64,000 nucleotides of DNA. Origin: Gynuella sp. GTDB taxonomy: Bacteria > Pseudomonadota > Gammaproteobacteria > Pseudomonadales > Natronospirillaceae. This document shows, piece by piece, positions 6,495 through 12,133 of this stretch. The translations under genes and the position numbers were made by a program. Each line of letters opens with the position of its first letter. Position 1 is the stretch's first letter. The notes beneath the pieces are model-generated. The model saw only the letters and a program-made list of their open reading frames with translations. It made no database searches and was not told where the DNA came from. The stretch covers positions 1 to 64,000 of the forward strand of contig JANQHX010000105.1 in NCBI GenBank assembly GCA_028282465.1, written 5' to 3'.

Positions 6495-8825
6495 TTAAGC
6501 AAATAACATAATAAACGCACCCGCTAGAGTGCCACCTACTACGGCAATAGAAACAATTAATCGAGCTAGGGTTGGAAATAAACCATGGGCTAGCTGAAAG
6601 CGATTCCAAAGGTCCAATTTGCGTTGCAGTACATGCTCTTTACCTGGCATTAAGACTGGGTAGTTAGAGGGAGTACTAGCCAATTCAGGAGCGGGTTGCA
6701 GCTGCTCTGGGTGACCTGCATTTTGTCGAAGCATTGACTCAGTTTGAATAAGTCTTTCCTTTAATTCAGAGTCTAAAAATGACAACGCATTAATGAAGCC
6801 ATTATTTATGTCAGAAACGACCTTGGCCCAATCTGGCCAGTTTTTGGAATCAACCGCAGCAATTTCAAACTTTGGTCTTTGCTCAACCCAATCGTCCAGA
6901 CCTATCGCTTTCTGGATGTAATCAGGCAGGGTGATTTCTGAAACGGCTGCAGAAACCTCGCGCATTTTCTCTTCAACTTTTTTACACACAGCCAGCATAC
7001 GTTTCTTTTCAAAGTATCCAATCTGACCATCTGCTGTAATGACCATCCATGTATTAACTAATAATGCCTGCTCATTTTCAGTCACAGCTCGCAAATGCTC
7101 AACACAATGCAACAGCTGAATTAAATTTTTTAGGTATTCTGCCCATCCTTGACCCAACTCTTCTGCAAGCTGGATATGCCCCCGACGACAACTGGCATCA
7201 TGCTCCATCAGCTCAAACTCTACAGTTTGTTGTTCTGCTTTGATGCTTTCAATGACGTCCGCAATGTCAGATTTCTTCAATTCTTCACCTCGATGGCGAA
7301 TGACACCACCAGAAGGTTTTAGATCGCCTCGATCCAATGCTTCAAGAGTTCCTATCTCAGAAGCTAGATTTCGAGATCTCTCCAATTGATCTGAAATGGA
7401 TTCAGGATAAAGTGCGGCAATTGACTGCTCCGCAGATTTTTTAATCGTGCCTTTAGTTAACAGCTCATCAACAGATTCAAAATTTCTAATGGGGTTACGA
7501 CTTAAATAAGTACCTCGATATTCCGGCGAATAAGACTCCCGGTTAAATCGTTTAATGACGGCTTCTAGAGGGCTAATAGGCTGCATTGTGTCTTCAGAAC
7601 TTTGTTTATAAAACGCGCCGGATATCGCTTGCCGAATTGCTTGAGGATCTGAAAACACATTCCATGCACTACGCTCGTCGATAGCCATGGCAATATAAGT
7701 TTGCTTAGCGTTTTCTTCTCTGTCTTGATTCTCTGGATGGGTTGACCACATTTGTGGCGGCCTGGCGGTTTGCTCTTCAAAAACCCTGTGGGCTTCTGGT
7801 TCAATACCTTCAGGCGCTGGAGGAACTGCACCATACTCTTGGTCGTTCAGCACCCGACGCATTTCATCAATGGTAATGTTTTGCACCTTGAATAAGTCGT
7901 CAATCCCTTTTCCGGAAGCAGCTTCTGAACCCGCAATATCCAAAGCCGTTTGCCATGCATGATCAGCGGCTTGAAGTTTTGAAAGAGCATTCACCAAAGC
8001 GTCACTACCGGTAACCGACACAGCGACTAAGTCTGCATTGAATTCCATTTCTCGACTTAGGGCTCGCTCTGCCATGACTACTAGGCTGAACAAAGTATCC
8101 ATCAATGAACGAATCGACCAAATAATCAGGGCCAATAGCCAACCAATCCAGGCCACACGGATATCGAAGCGAGATATAAACCGTACAATTTTGTCCAGCC
8201 AATCACGAGTGGCAACCATATGGGCGATAATTTGTTGAGCGATATAAACCCAGCGACCAACAACCATGGTGCCCTGAGCAAAGTGACCAAACTCATGGGC
8301 CAGAACGGCTTTTAGCTCGCCCAAATTCAGAACGTTTACCAGTCCAAGACCAATGATCAGATTTTTGCGAGAAGGGAAGATCAGATTCAACAGAGTCAAA
8401 TCGTAAAACACGGCAGCATTAACTTCCGGAGTAATAAAGATTCGGTGAGGCTTAGGTGCTCCCACTTCATCAGCTAGCTTGTGTAGGAAGCTAACTAGCT
8501 CAGGTTCTTGTTTCGCGTTCACCTCAATACCGCCAGGGTTACCAGCCTTTTTTACGACAAAAAGCGATTTGGCCATAAAAACGCTCAATAATCCGGCGCA
8601 AATAGTGAAAATGAAAATACCCAAACTTCCTCCCTCGGAGGATATTTTCATTATGCCGGTATAAGTGATATATCCGAAAAACCCGGTCAGCGCTAAATAA
8701 ATGATCATAAACAAGCAAAGCCCCATCATGGCTAGCCATGCTTGGCGTTTATAACTGGCTTTAGGTTTCGTGAGTTTATCGGGAATGTTTTTCGGGCTAG
8801 GTGGGTAAAGAGGTCTTGATGTCAT
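6495..8825 (-). CDS. Large membrane-bound M48 family metalloprotease with TerB-like segment
   Basis: A 776-residue protein. Two membrane segments lie near residues 30-55 and 68-90. The zinc-metalloprotease motif HEFGH follows at 177-181, with a third ligand expected at Glu261 in EMEFNAD. More hydrophobic stretches lie at about 222-250 and at the very C-terminus (about 755-775). It is much longer than HtpX (about 285 residues). Around residues 585-640, ITADGQIGYFEKKRML resembles the acidic ADGxIxxxE motif of TerB-like domains. Likely a membrane-anchored protease for quality control or surface maturation; substrate unknown. GGAG before the ATG supports the start. The 270-bp inverted-repeat element begins 19 bases upstream of it. 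Confidence 0.85.
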   Translation of the reverse strand: MTSRPLYPPSPKNIPDKLTKPKASYKRQAWLAMMGLCLFMIIYLALTGFFGYITYTGIMKISSEGGSLGIFIFTICAGLLSVFMAKSLFVVKKAGNPGGIEVNAKQEPELVSFLHKLADEVGAPKPHRIFITPEVNAAVFYDLTLLNLIFPSRKNLIIGLGLVNVLNLGELKAVLAHEFGHFAQGTMVVGRWVYIAQQIIAHMVATRDWLDKIVRFISRFDIRVAWIGWLLALIIWSIRSLMDTLFSLVVMAERALSREMEFNADLVAVSVTGSDALVNALSKLQAADHAWQTALDIAGSEAASGKGIDDLFKVQNITIDEMRRVLNDQEYGAVPPAPEGIEPEAHRVFEEQTARPPQMWSTHPENQDREENAKQTYIAMAIDERSAWNVFSDPQAIRQAISGAFYKQSSEDTMQPISPLEAVIKRFNRESYSPEYRGTYLSRNPIRNFESVDELLTKGTIKKSAEQSIAALYPESISDQLERSRNLASEIGTLEALDRGDLKPSGGVIRHRGEELKKSDIADVIESIKAEQQTVEFELMEHDASCRRGHIQLAEELGQGWAEYLKNLIQLLHCVEHLRAVTENEQALLVNTWMVITADGQIGYFEKKRMLAVCKKVEEKMREVSAAVSEITLPDYIQKAIGLDDWVEQRPKFEIAAVDSKNWPDWAKVVSDINNGFINALSFLDSELKERLIQTESMLRQNAGHPEQLQPAPELASTPSNYPVLMPGKEHVLQRKLDLWNRFQLAHGLFPTLARLIVSIAVVGGTLAGAFIMLFA

Positions 8826-8843: not shown

Positions 8844-9113
8844 TTAAGGAACCTCTGAACAAGTCCAGTATCGCTCTGGCTTTCAGGCGGGTTCTGAATC
8901 AAGGCGCCTTTTTGCAGTAATGTCTAGACCTTTCAAGAGAAGGCAACACAGAGTCAGGACTCGCCTGAAAGCCCCAAAGGGCGGGTCTAAACGTGTTTTT
9001 CTCTTTGTTGAAACTCTTGAAAAGGTCTAGACATTCCCTACGAGTTTCGCCGCGATAAAAATCACGTTTAGACATCCGCAGAGCAATGATGGACTTGTTC
9101 AGAGGTTCCTTAA
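8844..9113. repeat. 270-bp nested inverted-repeat element (MITE-like), non-coding
   Basis: The ends are a perfect 24-bp inverted repeat (8844-8867 with 9090-9113), beginning TTAAGGAACCTCTG and ending with its complement. Inside are three further complementary pairs: 8878-8889 with 8962-8973 (12 bp); 8919-8939 with 9014-9035 (about 21 bp, one extra base); and 8985-8995 with 9063-9073 (11 bp). These pairs interleave rather than nest simply. No open reading frame fills it. The TTAA at each outer end could be a target duplication or part of the repeat. This architecture fits a miniature inverted-repeat transposable element or a structured intergenic repeat. It occupies most of the space between divergent M48 and uvrA and lies close to both promoters. 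Confidence 0.8.
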
Positions 9114-9249: not shown

Positions 9250-9265
9250 CTGTAAATACATACAG
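9250..9265 (+). promoter_or_regulatory. LexA (SOS) box of uvrA
   Basis: CTGTAAATACATACAG fits the gammaproteobacterial consensus CTGT-N8-ACAG exactly. It is directly followed by a -10-like TACAAT (9266-9271); a weak -35 (TCGCCA, 9243-9248) sits 17 bases before that. The operator therefore overlaps the promoter 43 bases before the uvrA ATG, the position expected for LexA repression. Confidence 0.88.
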
Positions 9266-9307
9266 TACAATCCCGCGTTCGCATTTACCCACCGAGACAA
9301 AGCATTA

Positions 9308-12133
9308 ATGGATAAGATTATCGTTCAGGGCGCTCGCACCCATAATCTAAAAAATGTCGATATCGAAATACCCAGGGATAAACTAGTCGTCATTACAGGC
9401 CTGTCAGGCTCAGGAAAATCCTCTCTGGCTTTCGATACGCTTTATGCAGAGGGCCAACGCCGTTACGTAGAGTCACTCTCAACTTATGCCCGTCAATTTC
9501 TTTCCATGATGGAAAAGCCAGATGTTGATCATATTGAAGGTCTCTCTCCCGCGATTTCCATTGAACAAAAAACCACGAGCCATAACCCTCGTTCTACTGT
9601 GGGTACCACCACGGAGATTTATGATTATTTGCGCTTGTTGTTTGCGAGAACCGGTGAACCCAGATGCCCAGACCATGGCGAACCTCTGGAAGCTCAAACA
9701 GTAAGCCAAATGGTTGATCAAGTATTGAGCCTGCCTGAAGGCACAAAACTGATGATGCTGGCACCAGTAGTGAGAGAACGTAAAGGTGAGCACTTACATG
9801 TATTCAATGAACTGAAAGCACACGGATTCGTTCGGGTTAGAGTGAATGGCATTGTTACCGATTTAGATGAAGTACCTAAATTAGATAAGAGAAAGAAACA
9901 CAGCATCGAAGCTGTGGTCGACCGTTTTAAAGTTAGGGACGATTTACAGCAACGGCTTGCCGAATCTTTTGAAACCTGTCTTGAGTTAGCCAATGGTACG
10001 GCCGAAGTTGTGTATATGGATGGCGACGGTGAAGACATGCTGTTTTCTTCGAAATTTGCCTGCCCTATCTGTGGCTATGCCATCGCCGAACTAGAGCCGC
10101 GGATGTTTTCATTTAATAACCCTGCGGGCGCTTGCCCCACTTGCGATGGCCTCGGGGTAAAACAGTATTTCGACAAGAGCAAAATTATTTACAGCGACGA
10201 ATTAACACTCGCCGAAGGTGCTGTTATGGGGTGGGATCGTCGCAGCGTTTGGTACTTCACCCAACTGGAATGTCTTGCCGAACACATGGGGGTCGACATT
10301 GAAAAACCCTGGAAGAGACTCCCTAAAAAATTTCAAAAAGCGGTTTTTGAAGGCACCAAAGAAGATGTCGTTTTTAACTACGTAAATAGCAGAGGCGACG
10401 TAGTGCATAGAGCACATCCTTTCGAGGGTGTGTTGCCCAACATGGAAAGACGCTACAGAGAAACGGAATCAGCAGCCGTTCGAGAAGATTTAAGTAAATA
10501 CCTCGCTGAACAACCCTGTCCAGATTGCGGCGGCGCAAGACTTAAAACAGCCAGCCGACACGTATTTGTCGATAATCATCCATTGCCAGAATTAGTAAAG
10601 CTTCCCATAGGTGAAGCTGAAGCCTACTTCAGCCAACTGACATTGGAAGGCCATAAAGGAGAAATTGCCGATAAAATTCTCAAAGAAATTTGTCAGCGCC
10701 TGCAATTTTTGGTGAATGTAGGTCTCGACTATTTAAGCCTAGATCGTTCAGCGGACACGCTATCGGGCGGCGAAACTCAACGTATTCGATTAGCAAGCCA
10801 AATCGGCGCTGGTTTAGTGGGCGTTATGTACATTTTGGATGAACCCTCCATTGGCCTCCATCAACGGGACAATGAACGCTTACTGCAAACTCTGTTTCAC
10901 TTAAGAGACTTAGGGAATACCGTCTTGGTAGTAGAACATGATGAAGACGCCATTAAGAGTGCAGATTTCGTTTTAGATATTGGCCCTGGGGCTGGTGTTC
11001 ATGGTGGACAAGTCATCGCGTCTGGTACACCGAAACAGGTGATGAAAAATCCTAAGTCGGTTACTGGTCAGTACCTGTCAGGTAAAACAAAAATTACCAT
11101 GCCAGAACAACGCACAGCATTTGATAAAGATAGAACTCTGGTGTTGGAAGGTGCGACAGGCAACAATCTCCAGGATGTCACCTTAGAAATTCCGGTTGGG
11201 CTCTTTACCTGCATTACCGGAGTTTCTGGTTCAGGTAAATCGACGTTAATTAATTCAACACTCTATCCACTTGCTGCAACCGAACTGAATGGTGCAACTA
11301 CGTTGACACCATCGCCTTATCAAGCCATTCATGGCATGGATAACTTTGACAAAGTAGTCGACATTGATCAAAGCCCTATTGGAAGAACGCCAAGGTCAAA
11401 CCCTGCAACCTACACTGGCATATTTACAGCCATTCGAGATTTATTTGCTGGCACTCAAGAAGCAAGATCAAGAGGATACAAAGCCGGCCGGTTTAGCTTC
11501 AATGTTAAAGGCGGACGATGTGAAGCTTGCCAAGGCGATGGCCTCATTAAAGTTGAAATGCATTTCCTATCAGACATCTATGTTCCCTGCGACGTTTGTG
11601 GTGGCAAACGCTATAACCGGGAAACCTTAGAAGTAAAATATAAAGGCAAAAATATTCATGAGTGTCTAGAAATGACCGTAGAGGAAGGTCGCGAGTTTTT
11701 TGATGCCATTCCCCAACTCGCAAGACGCCTGCAAACGTTAATGGATGTAGGCCTGAGTTATATTAAACTTGGACAAAGTGCCACAACGCTTTCTGGCGGT
11801 GAGGCCCAACGAGTGAAATTATCAAAAGAATTATCCAAGAGAGATACGGGCAATACTTTATATATTCTAGATGAACCAACCACTGGACTTCATTTTCACG
11901 ACATTGAGCAATTATTACAGGTTCTCCATCGGCTGAGGGATCATGGCAATACCATCGTCGTTATTGAACATAATTTAGATGTAGTAAAAACTGCTGATTG
12001 GATTGTGGACTTAGGCCCTGAAGGTGGTAGCCGCGGCGGGCAAATAATTGCAACCGGTACTCCAGAACAAATTGCTAAATCCAAACAATCTTTAACTGGC
12101 AAATTCTTAAAACCAATATTGGATAAAGCCTAA
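9308..12133 (+). CDS. uvrA: Excinuclease ABC subunit A
   Basis: 941 residues, the full length of the family. UvrA is the DNA-damage-recognising ATPase dimer of nucleotide excision repair and loads UvrB. Visible landmarks are the first Walker [10 protein letters not shown] (about residue 31), CxxC zinc-binding pairs ([15 protein letters not shown]), an ABC signature [14 protein letters not shown] with LDEPSIGLH, the second Walker [10 protein letters not shown], the second zinc module (CEACQGDG...CDVCGG), and the second signature [15 protein letters not shown]. Both ATPase halves are intact. It is a single gene under its own SOS promoter, with a terminator right after it. Confidence 0.98.

Follow-up and report, generated by a model that had tools for sequence, protein, structure and literature searches.

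The closest described systems are the MITEs of the IS5 family (IS5 group, YTAR targets), which resemble the element analysed here in terminal repeats, target-site repeat, length, lack of coding capacity and dependence on a transposase acting in trans. However, this element has a structured core that is common to two bacterial classes, together with terminal repeats that differ, and ordinary MITEs are internal-deletion derivatives or carry arbitrary filler and are confined to a lineage. ERIC, Correia, RUP and similar sequences are likewise small, well-folding and intergenic, some with TA target repeats, but their sequence and anatomy are different and they occupy narrower host groups. REPs move as single strands without target duplication. 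REP/BIME sequences with RAYT transposases, such as the GTAG/CGTC-tagged palindromes (PMC3733652), share inverted hairpin pairs, intergenic location and high copy number with the element. REPs are 20-40 bp long, whereas the element contains two-helix units of about 112 nt enclosed by terminal and target-site repeats; membership in this class was rejected on these grounds, since a REP is a short hairpin with a GTAG/CGTC foot that duplicates no target. The repeats R0, R2, R178 and R200 of Pseudomonas fluorescens are intergenic and have been proposed to be MITEs in Pseudomonadales (PMC2718517), but their published sizes and inverted-repeat structure differ from those of the element. Rfam 15 gave only microRNA-type matches far below the gathering scores in the window (E up to 10) and no match to an element copy in eight related loci (E up to 1). 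No description of the core was found in the literature searched by sequence strings and keywords.

The window is a stretch of 64,000 nucleotides from Gynuella sp. (contig JANQHX010000105.1), and the element is a non-coding segment of 270 bp at 8844-9113, with TTAA on either side (8844-8847 and 9110-9113). It lies between two divergent genes, an M48-like gene on the minus strand (6495-8825), whose start is 18 bp away, and uvrA on the plus strand (9308-12133), at a distance of 195 bp. The terminal arms, 8844-8878 and 9079-9113, are 35 nt long and 91% complementary, with the outer 24 bp unbroken. Inside the TTAA repeats they form helix P1, composed of the left terminal inverted repeat (8848-8878, plus strand), beginning GGAACCTCTGAACAAG, and the right one (9079-9109, minus strand). 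Three internal complementary pairs were also measured: 8878-8900 with 8951-8973 (23 nt, 87%), 8985-9000 with 9058-9073 (16 nt, 94%) and 8919-8933 with 9021-9035 (15 nt, 100%), the last of which interleaves with both others. The sequence-only reading had described this anatomy and the intergenic, non-coding setting, and both agree with the re-measured pairs and the gene coordinates. It had missed two further short helices, 8906-8912 with 8938-8944 and 9010-9016 with 9042-9048. The folding energy of the element strand is -129 kcal/mol, compared with -71.6 +/- 5.2 kcal/mol for dinucleotide shuffles (z -11), and the opposite strand likewise folds far better than its shuffles (z about -11). Between the element and uvrA, a LexA-box-like palindrome, CTGTAAATACATACAG, was spotted by eye at 9251-9266, which would place the likely SOS control of uvrA downstream of the insertion; a scan with a stricter LexA-box consensus gave no match.

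The core of the element comprises two hairpin units, each about 112 nt long, in inverted orientation: the right half, read on the other strand, repeats the design of the left half. Each unit begins beside a terminal repeat and consists, in order, of an outer stem, CAAGGC, an inner stem, a loop of the form GCAGGGAATGnC...CCTTTTCAAG, the inner stem, AACGC and the outer stem; CAAGGC and AACGC form an internal loop. The motifs are common to both halves and across genera, and the stem sequences are not. In the window the left unit (8872-8983, sense on the plus strand) and the right unit (8973-9083, sense on the minus strand) are matched by covariance model R1 with 110.8 bits (E 2e-24) and 89 bits (E 4.4e-19), respectively, the window copy itself being among the sequences from which R1 was built. 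The left arm comprises the outer helix P2 (8878-8973), which shows compensatory changes, and the inner helix P3 (8906-8944), which covaries and closes the loop GCAGtAATGTCTAGACCTTTCAAG. In the right arm, the outer helix P4 (8985-9073) is seen in the unit alignment A3, and the inner helix P5 (9010-9048) covaries. The units of one element overlap by about 11 nt, and a CCC-nnn-GGG hairpin stands at the centre between them; in the window this is CCC-AAA-GGG at 8973-8981, the symmetry axis, and its two central C-G pairs are present in 96 of the 96 units with letters there.

Evidence that the pairs are maintained comes from two alignments. RNAalifold, applied to 42 whole copies aligned with MAFFT and not fitted to the covariance model, gives 83 pairs, 69 of which have compensatory double changes. 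A single-unit covariance model run on about 50 loci found 97 units; two inverted units are present at 44 of the 51 loci with a match, most of the others are cut by a contig end, and no gene is flanked by units in the loci read. In A3, 30 of the 34 pairs show two-sided changes, 90.5% of cells are paired (57.8% after shuffling), and the covariation score is 0.781, compared with 0.185 for shuffled alignments and at most 0.124 for slid registers; A3 was fitted to the covariance model, which raises the pairing and covariation values. The stems covary while the loop motifs stay fixed over two classes, and this combination of compensatory stem changes with conserved loops is one of the marks of a structured RNA. 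The covariation analysis that the sequence-only reading had proposed thus bears out its suggestion of a structured RNA or DNA element, and the core is very probably a structure conserved at the level of the single strand. In some copies, additional hairpins about 15 nt long, which are variants of TCGGAAYGCCGAACC, sit at several fixed core junctions (L003, L010-L012, L015-L018 and L021-L022 in the own genome; L045, L052 and L055 in other genomes). These mini-hairpins occupy different places in different genomes, as if mobile themselves, and none occurs elsewhere in the window. The loop was rejected as a CsrA/RsmA binding site, since several copies lack GGA, among them the window copy in its left loop.

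The genome to which the window belongs (4.48 Mb) contains about 22 stretches that match the element over most of its length with 73-100% identity, at least 20 of them dispersed copies. The 16 copies whose surroundings were checked are all intergenic, in divergent, convergent and tandem spaces alike. Other genomes of the order also carry related copies, among them Saccharospirillum, Microbulbifer and a Cellvibrionales MAG. Most are flanked by CTAG/CTAG or TTAA/TTAA, CTAA/CTAA also occurs, and some copies have no direct flanking repeats (e.g., TTAG/CTAA in L006). In the one-contig genome G177, each of the 22 pairs of end motifs marks an element of about 255 bp; of the 20 copies fetched, 16, lying at unrelated sites, are equal in length and differ from the reference copy by only 0-2 bases, which shows recent movement. 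No IS-length element with the ends of these copies was found in G177. For the window group a 4-bp target-site repeat is preferred to one of TA alone, given the non-palindromic direct repeats in L050, L174, L183 and L191, although the G177 copies fit TA. A P. aeruginosa plasmid comparison set 303 bp of intergenic space against 88 bp, but the sequences are too diverged to reveal a precise empty site at the insertion junction. The window copy itself had no match among the plasmids and phages searched. With many copies and covarying arms, the element is neither of the things that the sequence-only reading had set against its proposal of a MITE mobilised in trans, namely a single copy and a lack of covariation between the arms. 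The search for further copies that it had suggested, the target-site repeats, the ends described below and the absence of a transposase gene of that type from the own genome all agree with the proposal, and we hold with high confidence that the window element is mobile.

The element holds no transposase gene. Its ends, of the form GGAACCTCTGA-N2-AA, are shared with complete insertion sequences at two loci, L169 and L174. The former starts with GGAACCTCTGAACAAG directly after CTAG and encodes a transposase of 324 aa that belongs to NCBIfam transpos_IS5_4; the latter starts with GGAACCTCTGATTAAT and has TTAG on both sides. Because complete insertion sequences share these ends, the element has IS5-group ends, and its TTAA represents the target-site repeat of IS5-group insertions. 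Neither an IS5-group transposase of matching type nor an IS630-type DDE_3 transposase was found in the own genome. Nor did that genome yield an autonomous element with the ends of the window copy: each of the five end motifs read outside recognised copies proved to be a solo end, a short end-to-end remnant or a decayed fragment. In three relatives, too, the solo end motifs that were read turned out to be fragments. Remnants of about 36 bp running end to end, such as TTAAGGAACCTCTGAATAAGTCCAGAAGTTCCTTAA (L057:1135-1172, L059:2890-2928, L089:953-990), are apparently elements that have lost the entire core. The 4.2-Mb genome G022, in which the end motif was counted 68 times in each orientation, many of these near contig ends, contains no PF01609 or PF05598 transposase. 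On two Azotobacter plasmids (L228:1717-2905, L227:268-1454) an element copy and the end of an IS630-like element meet at a CTAG.

The terminal repeats are near-perfect within each element and quite different between genomes, nearly always beside CTAG or TA. Two kinds of ends were matched to transposases of two IS5 sub-families: ends of the window type to the IS5_4 transposase, and the GGGYCTGTTGACGTTT ends of copies from Pseudomonas, Azotobacter and Halomonas to an 855-bp insertion sequence with an IS5_3 transposase. The core, rather than the ends, is constant across lineages, and the ends are exchanged. The complete IS5 elements with matching ends contain no hairpin unit. Since the core sits between ends of different sub-families and complete IS5 elements lack it, the transposase does not need it.

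Mismatches in the helices indicate which strand is selected. When the helices are read from the end towards the centre, G.U occupies 249 cells and A.C 27, in an alignment (A3) whose fit to an RNA model leans it towards G.U and with about 94 of the G.U cells contributed by two doubtful apical pairs. Leaving out the apical helices still gives about 149 to 19, and helices chosen by Watson-Crick pairs alone, which is blind to strand, give G.U to A.C ratios of 30:7 on the left and 36:11 on the right. This excess implies selection on each half as a single strand, read in the sense direction of that half. The two sense directions lie on opposite strands, and in this inverted arrangement a transcript from either side meets a sense unit first. 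RNA would be the simplest explanation of the selected strand. Single-stranded DNA also tolerates G.T better than A.C, so that the excess marks a strand and not RNA as such; whether the working strand is RNA rather than DNA we judge to be evenly balanced.

These observations are best accommodated, with somewhat better than even confidence, by a non-autonomous, MITE-type transposable element that combines IS5-group ends and a 4-bp YTAR target repeat with an ancient structured core. An IS5-group transposase, now missing from the genome of the window, would have spread it in trans, together with the two inverted hairpin units around the CCC-nnn-GGG centre. Read-through from either neighbouring gene would always produce a sense unit first, and the core would therefore most likely work as a folded RNA in read-through transcripts. 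Such a folded core might bind a conserved host factor, with the effect that the insertion is tolerated, or that the transcript is protected, terminated or antiterminated. The antiterminator put RNAs of HK022, hairpins that act in cis on the passing polymerase, offer an analogy only; we know of no sequence resemblance between them and the element, and the likeness is one of idea.

Alternatively, the core may be a DNA device, whose hairpins in single-stranded or extruded DNA are recognised by the transposase or a host protein during transposition or replication, the 5' strand of each end bearing one functional hairpin. The two-fold symmetry typical of transposon ends, the position of every unit beside a terminal repeat, the strong folding of both strands and the TA/YTAR that is nearly always present in the flanks are consistent with such a device. 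However, one core is common to IS5_4-type and IS5_3-type ends, complete IS5 elements manage without a unit, and extrusion of both strands predicts equal numbers of G.T and A.C, where an asymmetry is observed instead. We consider this explanation unlikely, although it is the most serious competitor of a folded transcript.

The interleaved 15-bp pair (8919-8933 with 9021-9035), from which the sequence-only reading had drawn mutually exclusive folds or pseudoknots, is complete in the window copy (15 of 15 bp) and 98% paired in the own-genome copies, but a functional pseudoknot or two-state switch is highly improbable, because in other genomes pairing drops to 67%, with 5 two-sided changes (95% and 182 for P2), breaks in the pair go uncompensated, and the loops within an element are unlinked, being no more alike (0.53) than loops of different elements (0.55). 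The loops of the window are complementary because both carry the GTCTAGAC form of the shared motif in inverted units; the pairing is not conserved. Equally improbable is the notion that the internal repeats are debris of a palindrome decaying after a single inverted duplication, with covariation arising by gene conversion between the arms: the halves are indeed inverted and have conserved motifs in common, but they are no more alike within elements than between them (0.36 and 0.38 for P2, in addition to the loop values above), which speaks against recent duplication or conversion, and the stems covary across two classes around fixed loop motifs.

We return to the MITE with a structured core and its distribution. 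Of 369 genomes sampled across Gammaproteobacteria, 113 are matched by the unit model (E <=1e-4), as are 73 of 398 sampled across the phylum (E <=1e-6); the latter extend to a second class, in which many genera of a single family are represented. Copies are found on plasmids of Pseudomonas aeruginosa, Azotobacter chroococcum and Halomonas. The E. coli genomes gave no match, and viral contigs gave none with one form of the class-wide loop motif and none with the other kinds of ends. In one locus a molybdenum cofactor riboswitch (RF01055, L041:1873-2030) lies close to a copy, probably by chance. The G+C content of the stems tracks that of the host flanks (slope 0.90, rho 0.67), in loci that come from related genomes and are hence not independent. 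Because stem and surroundings agree in this way, their base composition suggests long residence, during which pairs may have been repaired while the bases drifted.

The element is present in about a third of the sampled gammaproteobacterial genomes and yet has no match in Rfam or in the literature searched, and its core is conserved in structure as tightly as known RNA families. We tentatively propose, at slightly less than even confidence, that it represents an undescribed superfamily of structured mobile elements spanning classes, in which a bidirectional RNA module survives by swapping transposon ends among IS families; the lineage would then be defined by the module rather than by the transposase. 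It offers a system in which to ask by which host factor the hairpin is recognised. Should the core prove to be a bidirectional RNA, it would illustrate how parasitic DNA can be made harmless to the operons of its host and outlive its transposases.
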